Below are positions 6,998-8,729 of a DNA stretch of 64,000 nucleotides, piece by piece. Source of the DNA: Bradyrhizobium guangxiense (GTDB lineage Bacteria; Pseudomonadota; Alphaproteobacteria; Rhizobiales; Xanthobacteraceae); the NCBI RefSeq assembly GCF_004114915.1, contig NZ_CP022219.1, forward strand, positions 836,501-900,500, in the 5' to 3' direction. Below the pieces are notes generated by a model. It was not told the origin of the DNA, ran no database searches, and saw nothing but the letters and a program-made list of their open reading frames with translations. Position 1 is the first letter of the stretch, and each line of letters starts with the position of its first letter. The translations under genes were made by a program, and so were the position numbers.

Positions 6998-7318
6998 ATG
7001 GCCGACCCCGAAACGCCCGCCACCAACCAGGGGCCTGTCATCATTTCGAGCTCCAGCTCGGAGCGTGCGCCGATCATCTATTTCGACGGCGCGTCCTGCT
7101 TCGGTCATCACAACGGCGCGATCCAGATCGAGCTTGCCGCGAACCTGTTGATGCCGGTCGGTGCCGCCGTCAGGGTTGACGTGGTCCAGACCGCGCACCT
7201 GCGTTGCAGCGTGGCCGCGGCGCTGGCGCTGCGTGAAGCCCTCGACAAGGCGCTGGCGATGTACCAGCAGGGCCAGAAGCAGCCGGTCGCCGAGGAGATC
7301 CCGGTCGTGAAGAACTGA
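6998..7318 (+). CDS. Small hypothetical protein, about 106 residues
   Basis: An AAGGAG site five bases before the ATG at 6998 fixes the start. The frame is open about 210 bases further upstream, but that part overlaps the divergent gene. The N terminus is polar and Ser-rich. The middle has the pattern of beta strands (IIYFDG, NGAIQIELAANLL, AAVRVDVVQTAHLRC) followed by a helix AALALREALDKALAMYQ. This general plan resembles DUF3467-type small proteins, but the likeness is too weak to assert. I do not recognise a function. It lies 184 bases upstream of the Lon-N/Clp-N fusion gene on the same strand. Confidence 0.7.
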   Translation: MADPETPATNQGPVIISSSSSERAPIIYFDGASCFGHHNGAIQIELAANLLMPVGAAVRVDVVQTAHLRCSVAAALALREALDKALAMYQQGQKQPVAEEIPVVKN

Positions 7319-7502
7319 GATCGCAATTGACAGCGATTTATCTTTGCGCCACCTTCCGTGCAGGTTGATACGACCTGCCGGTTGCACCCTCCGTGGAATG
7401 GTGAACGTATCGAGCCTTCATCGGCCTCCCCTTTGCCCGAGCGTCCGGGTCAGCAACGCAACCGCCTGATACATCTGGATCGCTCATGCAGAGGAAGAAC
7501 CG

Positions 7503-8729
7503 ATGCGCGATTTTCGCGATGCCAAGGCTATGGCGCAGACCCTGCGCGAATCCCTGATCACCAAGGCCGTCACCATCAGTCACAGCGAAAGCCTCGAACT
7601 GGTGTCGAGGATGCTGGGCGTTGCCGACTGGAATACATTGTCGGCAATGCTTCAGACCGGGCGTCGCGACACGCCGGTGCCGATCGCAAGGCTCAAAAGC
7701 TCGACCGCGGTCTATCCGGCGGTGCCGTTGCGCGATTTCGTACCGTTTCCAAACGCAAGCTTTCCGCTGTTCGTCGGGCGCGAGAATACGGTGCTGGCGC
7801 TCAACCATGCGTTCGAGGGCGCACGCCAGATGGTCTGCGCGATCCAGCGCGATGCGGCCGTCGATGAGCCGCAATTTGCCGACGTCCACGAGGTTGGTCT
7901 GCTCGCTCAATTGGTCGAGCTCGAACGGCTCTCCGACGGCTCGATCAGGGTCCTGACCCGCGGACTCCGCCGCGTCGGGCTTCGCAGCTTCGCGGCGACG
8001 AATGACGGTTACCGGTCCGAGGCTTTCGAACTGCCCGAGAGCCCGCCTGCGGAGGCGCCTGACCTGGTCCGCCGAACCATCCAGCGCTTCGAGGATTACG
8101 CGGCGGCCCACGGTCTGCTGATGCCGGACGTCTGGTCGTTCTTTGATCGGACGTCCGACATCGGACATATCGCCGATACGATAGCGACGCGGATGAAGCT
8201 CTCGGTCAAGGACAAGTACGAGTTGCTGGCCATCCTAGATCCCATGAAGCGGCTGGAGAAGATCGACGCGTTGCTTGACGCCTCGTCCCGCCCGTTCGCT
8301 CCGGCCTATGTCGCCACGCGCCGCCGGGCGCTTGATCTTGCCGACCGGCGCCGCCATCAGTTTGCGACGCTGGAGCACCTTCTGCTGGCGTTGACCGAAG
8401 ACGGCGATGCCGCGCCTGTCCTGCAGGCCTGCAAGGCCGATCTCGGCACGCTCAGGCAGAGCCTGACCGACTATCTCGATAAGGAGCTCGCTCACATCGT
8501 GGTCGAGACCGGCACCGCAGTGCCGACCGCTGCATTCCAGCGCGTCGATCGTCGGGGCGCGCTGCTTGCCCAGGAGGTCGGCAATCCCGCGGTGACCGGC
8601 GCCAATGCACTCGTCGCTCTGTTTCCGGAGACACGAAGTCCCGCGGTGCGCTTCCTCGCCGAGCAGGACGTATCACGCTGGCGCGTGGACAAGGCCATCG
8701 CGAAAGCGAGTGCCAAGGACAAGGGCTAG
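7503..8729 (+). CDS. Three-module fusion: glyoxalase-related N-module, Lon substrate-binding domain, ClpA-type N domain; no ATPase or protease
   Basis: This 408-residue protein has three recognisable parts. Residues 1-50, with FRDAKAMAQTLRESL and the SHSESLELVSRMLGVADW block, match the small glyoxalase-related module found in many rhizobial proteins. Residues about 71-258 align along their whole length with the N-terminal domain of Lon: AVPLRDFVPFPNASFPLFVGR, DEPQFADVHEVGLLAQLVEL, ADTIATRMKL and a helical end MKRLEKIDALL. Residues about 265-405 align with both repeats of the ClpA N domain: HQFATLEHLLLALTEDGDA, then VTGANALVALFPE and DVSRWRVDKAI. There is no Walker motif, Ser-Lys dyad or ClpP loop. 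The start has GAGGAAG upstream. It could be a substrate adaptor, a ClpS decoy or an assembly scaffold; all of these are inference. Confidence 0.85.
   Translation: MRDFRDAKAMAQTLRESLITKAVTISHSESLELVSRMLGVADWNTLSAMLQTGRRDTPVPIARLKSSTAVYPAVPLRDFVPFPNASFPLFVGRENTVLALNHAFEGARQMVCAIQRDAAVDEPQFADVHEVGLLAQLVELERLSDGSIRVLTRGLRRVGLRSFAATNDGYRSEAFELPESPPAEAPDLVRRTIQRFEDYAAAHGLLMPDVWSFFDRTSDIGHIADTIATRMKLSVKDKYELLAILDPMKRLEKIDALLDASSRPFAPAYVATRRRALDLADRRRHQFATLEHLLLALTEDGDAAPVLQACKADLGTLRQSLTDYLDKELAHIVVETGTAVPTAAFQRVDRRGALLAQEVGNPAVTGANALVALFPETRSPAVRFLAEQDVSRWRVDKAIAKASAKDKG

Follow-up and report, generated by a model that had tools for sequence, protein, structure and literature searches.

A structured RNA leader and a conserved N-terminal module accompany detached Lon, ClpA and ClpX receptor domains in Bradyrhizobium

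We report here a gene family in which a short N-terminal module (hereafter the N-module) is the constant part and the domains attached to it are exchangeable, and a covarying leader RNA that precedes its genes. In the largest group of members the attached domains are the receptors of AAA+ proteases, detached from any catalytic part. The family is hidden by its annotations, which include 'glyoxalase' (for PF20066) and 'ATP-dependent Lon protease'. The member analysed in most detail lies in a 64,000-nt stretch of Bradyrhizobium guangxiense DNA, referred to as the window, in which all positions are given; 'genus' and 'order' in our counts are those of this host.

Results

Domain content and conservation of the three-domain gene

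The gene and its parts are as follows:
7503..8729, + strand: coding sequence for 408 aa, N-module followed by a Lon N domain and a ClpA N domain
7503..7664, + strand: N-module, residues 1-54, three predicted helices, the N part of PF20066
7701..8282, + strand: Lon N (substrate-binding) domain, residues 67-260
8292..8708, + strand: ClpA N domain with both repeats, residues 264-402

The product of 7503-8729 thus contains the N-terminal substrate-binding domain of Lon and a Clp N domain with two repeats. Neither the AAA+ ATPase and Ser-Lys protease domains of Lon nor the two AAA+ modules with Walker A of ClpA-type proteins gave a Pfam or NCBIfam match in the 408-aa protein, and its score against the full Lon model was 104.7 (cut-off 891). 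The Clp N half is ClpA-type according to NCBIfam, with 45.5% identity to the genome's own ClpA, and fold comparison gave 37% identity to ClpA-N versus 19-22% to the N domains of ClpC. PF20066 matches the protein at profile positions 8-58 of 143 only; the glyoxalase fold that follows this part of the profile is absent, and a Lon-N fold stands there instead. A preliminary description, made from the sequence alone, had proposed these domain identities and the lack of a catalytic part, both of which hold by Pfam, NCBIfam and fold comparison, and had known of no described system with this architecture, for which we likewise found no paper in the open-access literature. What it missed was the larger pattern, namely the constancy of the N-module, the ClpX zinc domain fusions and the RNA leader.

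The three-domain gene is under purifying selection and is not an accident of one strain. Homologues of the 408-aa protein show 61-93% identity among the 120 listed of 1545, and the 35 other three-domain genes found among 80 loci, from Bradyrhizobium, Tardiphaga and a few metagenome-assembled genomes, all encode 403-413 aa. Median dN/dS was 0.106 for the N-module, 0.169 for the Lon N domain and 0.194 for the ClpA N domain (102-103 pairs each). A frameshift that removed the ATPase in this strain only, which the preliminary description had raised against itself, is ruled out by the relatives of the same length and the low dN/dS, since the layout recurs across relatives under purifying selection. 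A decaying, functionless remnant of Lon and ClpA fragments would agree with the missing catalytic part and with the few truncated copies (234 and 355 aa), but is extremely improbable: with a median dN/dS of 0.11-0.19 in every domain and 403-413 aa kept in 35 other genes, low dN/dS and constant length contradict it. The truncated three-domain copies are L051 and L158 (234 aa) and L041 and L143 (355 aa); the record of L041 is named Frankia sp. RB7, its relatives here are Bradyrhizobium, and the assembly is possibly misnamed. As for the surroundings, the flanking frames on the opposite strand each recur in 19 of the 35 three-domain loci. A small upstream protein of about 106 aa (6998-7318, + strand; no Pfam match) ends about 185 nt before the gene, and its frame also recurs in 19 of 35 relatives.

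The preliminary description had suggested that the protein could compete for ClpS. The E. coli ClpA residues that contact ClpS are E23, E28, T81 and R86, as given in the consulted part of PMC12493166. All 36 three-domain rows have the counterparts of E28 and R86 unchanged; at the T81 position 30 rows have T and 6 have S, and at the E23 position 28 have Q, 7 have R and 1 has G. The four positions are Q, E, T and R both in the 408-aa protein and in the genome's own ClpA. At the same positions, ClpB has E28 in 18/25, R86 in 15/25 and T81 in 5/25. Judged from these residues, competition for ClpS by the ClpA N half is plausible: the contacts are kept as in the cell's own ClpA, but because E28 and R86 also occur often in ClpB, they are consistent with ClpS binding rather than decisive for it. 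In the genome (G000; C1:3619073 and C1:4743305), Lon is represented by two full-length frames and ClpS by two genes, so that there is more than one possible ligand set.

A constant module with exchangeable partners

The N-module is the most conserved stretch, with 50% of its columns at least 95% invariant versus 21-24% in the other domains. Modelled alone it reached a mean pLDDT of 79.9, and no significant fold match to it was found. Over 229 rows, K8 and W43 are each present in 100%, N44 in 99%, R15 in 97% and H27 in 87%, and these five residues would suit contact with nucleic acid (RNA).

An N-module scan of 242 genomes of the genus returned 131 genes in 111 genomes; since the other 131 of the 242 genomes gave no match, the family is not a core gene. 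The second domains of all 131 genes were classed by blastp to representative domains, each class being backed by Pfam or NCBIfam in the representatives that were run. The partners were LonN with ClpA-N (36 genes), DUF3471 (32), LonN (29) and the ClpX zinc-binding N domain (17), and more rarely ClpA-N (12), ClpA-N with sigma region 4 (1) or nothing recognised (4). A single module thus bears the receptors of three AAA+ proteases: Lon, ClpA or ClpX supplies such a domain in 95 of the 131 genes, with some of these truncated, as are some of the counted genus members generally (for example 124, 145, 234 and 355 aa). A Walker A pattern was found in none of the 131, and the zinc cysteines are intact in the 8 aligned rows of the 17 ClpX-type proteins. 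DUF3471 or nothing recognised accounts for 36 of the 131. Beyond the genus, many N-module genes encode a full-length PF20066 glyoxalase (about 145 aa), and at least one N-module protein carries pentapeptide repeats. The family is thus not confined to proteolysis, given its DUF3471, glyoxalase and pentapeptide-repeat members, and PF20066 comprises two units, the first of which is wrongly called 'glyoxalase' because it also sits on other domains.

The set of partners bears on two other readings of the protein. It could be an adaptor or tether: a client bound by the N-module would be delivered to a protease by the receptor domains, with ClpA-N acting through ClpS, and with LonN and the ClpX zinc domain each pairing with its counterpart in the enzyme. 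The ClpX zinc domain dimerises, and three AAA+ receptor domains on one module would fit a shared client sent to different proteases. Delivery through ClpA-N would, however, need ClpS to bridge two N domains, because to our knowledge the ClpA N domain does not bind the ClpA ring itself, and the DUF3471 and glyoxalase members do not fit; we regard this reading as unlikely. The other is a stand-alone holdase, in which Lon-N keeps unfolded proteins soluble and the rest is accessory. In the consulted part of PMC8087443, Lon N domain in isolation is described as binding proteins that are unfolded, aggregated or degron-tagged, but a holdase leaves the ClpA-N-only and ClpX-zinc-only members unexplained, and the leader as well, and is in our judgement quite improbable.

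Several further members and neighbours were seen. Plasmids from Rhizobiaceae and a single Phyllobacterium encode a 273-aa protein of N-module and LonN, which lies beside repABC in 2 of the 4 annotated loci examined. On three Rhizobiaceae plasmids (L019, L020, L106) repABC adjoins N-module genes, and on two of these a Phd/PemK toxin-antitoxin pair lies near the N-module gene. The 275-aa protein at L157:344-1168 (+ strand) consists of N-module, ClpA N domain and sigma-70 region 4, a Clp receptor joined to a promoter-binding domain. At L107:2480-2980 (+ strand) the N-module is fused to pentapeptide repeats, with a leader match directly upstream (44.8 bits, E 1.6e-11). A ZMP/ZTP riboswitch (L103:3314-3395, + strand, E 1.2e-7) stands before folD on an Agrobacterium vitis plasmid and adjoins an N-module and DUF3471 gene. 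Frames of 68-170 aa with the ClpX zinc domain in G476, G449, G415, G419, G171 and G401 are further detached receptor domains, at places where the N-module scan matched nothing.

A structured RNA leader that ends at the start codon

Upstream of the gene lies a leader with these elements:
7352..7505, + strand: structured RNA leader, the match of covariance model R1, ending at the start codon
7367..7372, + strand: helix 1, 5' arm GATACG, pairing with 7406-7411 (columns 28-33 with 73-78 of alignment A6)
7406..7411, + strand: helix 1, 3' arm CGTATC, pairing with 7367-7372
7430..7436, + strand: anti-Shine-Dalgarno arm CCTTTGC (A6 columns 102-110 with 170-176)
7488..7494, + strand: GCAGAGG of helix 4, overlapping the Shine-Dalgarno site (AGAGGA, 7490-7495)

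This leader is a covarying RNA. To build A6, 212 upstream regions, duplicates included, were thinned to 67; after removal of five of these (the truncated copy L041, the 27-aa fragment L242, and L243, L386 and L387 from outside the family) and addition of the window, the 63 leaders were aligned with plain MAFFT. RNAalifold recovered the main helices from A6 unaided. In the 34-pair structure, 91.8% of cells are paired versus 33.6-42.5% in controls with slid partners. With the structure drawn from the same alignment on which it was tested, changes on both sides occur at 14 of the 34 pairs (shuffle mean 7.3) and in 70 cells (shuffle mean 22.2), neither value being reached in any of 500 shuffles; a count of 42 further pair types is unremarkable, since 38 of 500 shuffles reach it. 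An alignment fitted to the model raises the pair count to 29/34, the plain-alignment test being the fairer one. Helix 5 has two inner pairs that are often broken, in 16 and 29 of the 63 rows. Helix 1 (GAUACG/CGUAUC) shows a compensatory exchange of U-A to C-G in L079, and in helix 4 CCUUUGC pairs with GCARAGG across the alignment, 89.1% of the cells of this anti-Shine-Dalgarno pairing being paired. Median identity to the window is 0.895 for the leader (about 140 nt), 0.723 for the coding sequence and 0.592 for the next 141 nt upstream, and the leader is more conserved than the coding sequence in all 35 comparisons with the window. On this model, the leader is predicted to hide the Shine-Dalgarno site in helix 4; a simple single-sequence fold gives a predicted pairing of 0.83 for that site at all temperature steps between 15 and 55 °C.

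Model R1 finds the leader in the 64-kb window with 138.2 bits (E 1.2e-40) as the sole match at E up to 1, the window being one of the model's 63 rows, which, like all rows of A6, match by construction. Upstream similarity to the leader was seen in 36/36 genes of the LonN and ClpN class (query included), 14/14 with DUF3471, 16/17 of the ClpX type, 12/12 with ClpN, 31/31 with LonN (two of them truncated three-domain copies), 4/4 plasmid genes with LonN and the single gene with ClpN and sigma (1/1). The model matched before 127 of the 131 N-module genes of the genus, 28 of the 127 being rows of its own alignment, and the four without a leader are the same four without a recognised second domain. 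Across 397 genomes of the order, searched with stricter filters that lose weak matches, R1 gave 72 matches in 63 genomes. An N-module frame adjoins 68 of the 72, where L406, which a longest-frame rule misread, and two places outside the 70 inspected are counted from the N-module scans; no recognised N-module frame stands beside the matches L399, L446, L447 and L457, and the leader may also precede other genes. Among the 70 inspected matches, 65 run straight into an N-module frame, whose start codon lies exactly at the model's end in 60 of these 65. At E up to 1e-3, the leader also occurs beyond the order, in 16 of the 28 N-module loci at class level (L161-L188) and in 6/6 further plasmid loci (L103-L108, one of Variovorax); N-module glyoxalase genes have it too (L105, L106). 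Rfam 15 gave no match at gathering score in window positions 7201-7600 (three up to E 10, the best with E 1.4, all on the minus strand) and none at E up to 0.5 in the leaders of 13 relatives. With its strong covariation, the leader is a candidate for a new class of cis-regulatory RNA.

It is worth asking whether the RNA acts apart from the protein, as a small-molecule riboswitch, with the N-module serving another role such as dimerisation. The RNA is compact and conserved, with predicted sequestration of the Shine-Dalgarno site, and stands before N-module glyoxalase genes as well; the stable pairing from 15 to 55 °C in the simple fold would argue against a melting thermometer. However, nothing would require a metabolite switch to keep to a single protein module, whereas 68/72 leader matches adjoin N-module frames, and we do not think a riboswitch likely. 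Nor need the conserved 5' block act as RNA at all, for it could be a DNA recombination site for the exchange of 3' domains, its fold being that of single-stranded DNA. Domain exchange behind a constant 5' block and integrase genes near plasmid copies would agree with this, but the block ends at the start codon (the model's last codon in 60/65 frames) and pairs the Shine-Dalgarno site, which makes such a site very unlikely. A shared leader could also partly reflect duplication that carried the 5' region along, a point against a regulatory reading; duplication is insufficient as the sole cause, because it does not explain the compensatory changes and the kept pairing.

Discussion

Each part is known by itself; the cassette, the leader RNA and the receptor set appear to be new as far as the open-access literature goes, in which we found no description of them or of the receptors of three proteases on one module. 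The closest known protein is mycobacterial ClpC2 which, in the consulted part of PMC10030653, has an N-terminal dimerisation domain followed by a detached ClpC1-like N domain, and acts as a sponge for a drug and as a repressor of its own gene at the DNA level, a repression relieved by ligand. In both proteins, an N-terminal domain that is not an ATPase precedes a detached Clp N domain. By that same part of the source, however, the N domain of ClpC2 is ClpC1-type rather than ClpA-type, a Lon domain is lacking, and autorepression occurs at the DNA level with no mention of an RNA leader (PMC10030653).

Stand-alone Lon N proteins (1zbo, BPP1347; 7cay, Xanthomonas; and the 225-aa L016 of the same genome) have the Lon-N fold without ATPase, as here, but unlike the 408-aa protein have neither N-module nor Clp N domain, and L016 is only distantly similar to it (22% over 91 aa). 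The ClpA/ClpS system shares the ClpA-type N domain, whereas the D1 and D2 ATPase modules are absent from our protein. The Glyoxalase_8 proteins of PF20066 share the N-terminal module, but not the glyoxalase fold, and of their 30 full-length loci in the order (L109-L138), 8 have the same leader (E up to 1e-3). The chain 7eko_O, which we take to be a chloroplast ClpT-type subunit, differs from the 408-aa protein in being bound to the ClpP complex in plastids.

We propose, tentatively and at somewhat less than an even chance, that the 408-aa protein is a decoy or sensor of Lon and ClpA ligands, built on a fixed cassette of leader and N-module, with the leader controlling translation. The 5' cassette, a leader of about 150 nt and the 54-residue helical N-module, would be the control unit, and the exchangeable domains attached at its 3' side, here the receptors of Lon and ClpA, would bind the ligands of these receptors, that is, damaged or degron-bearing proteins and ClpS, without degrading them. 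N-degron cargo would then be bound through ClpS. As a decoy the protein would lower the load on Lon and ClpAP, and as a sensor it would report it. Since leader and N-module are the only parts common to all members, the N-module probably helps to read the leader, a form of autogenous control. The idea of a decoy or sensor with feedback comes from the analogy with ClpC2, the feedback here probably acting at translation. Because detached receptors stand behind a shared module and leader, it is testable whether a ligand of the receptor alters translation of the receptor's own gene.

A further step, which we consider rather doubtful, is that these proteins form a new class of translational one-component regulators, in which the N-module recognises its own leader and the attached domain senses protease load. 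If this is true, receptor domains of Lon, ClpA and ClpX would be used as sensors in one-component regulators, and free ClpS and damaged proteins would be read as protease load and fed back to translation. This family bears on the way in which bacteria gauge the load of their AAA+ proteases, and suggests an unrecognised means of sensing or controlling protein breakdown.
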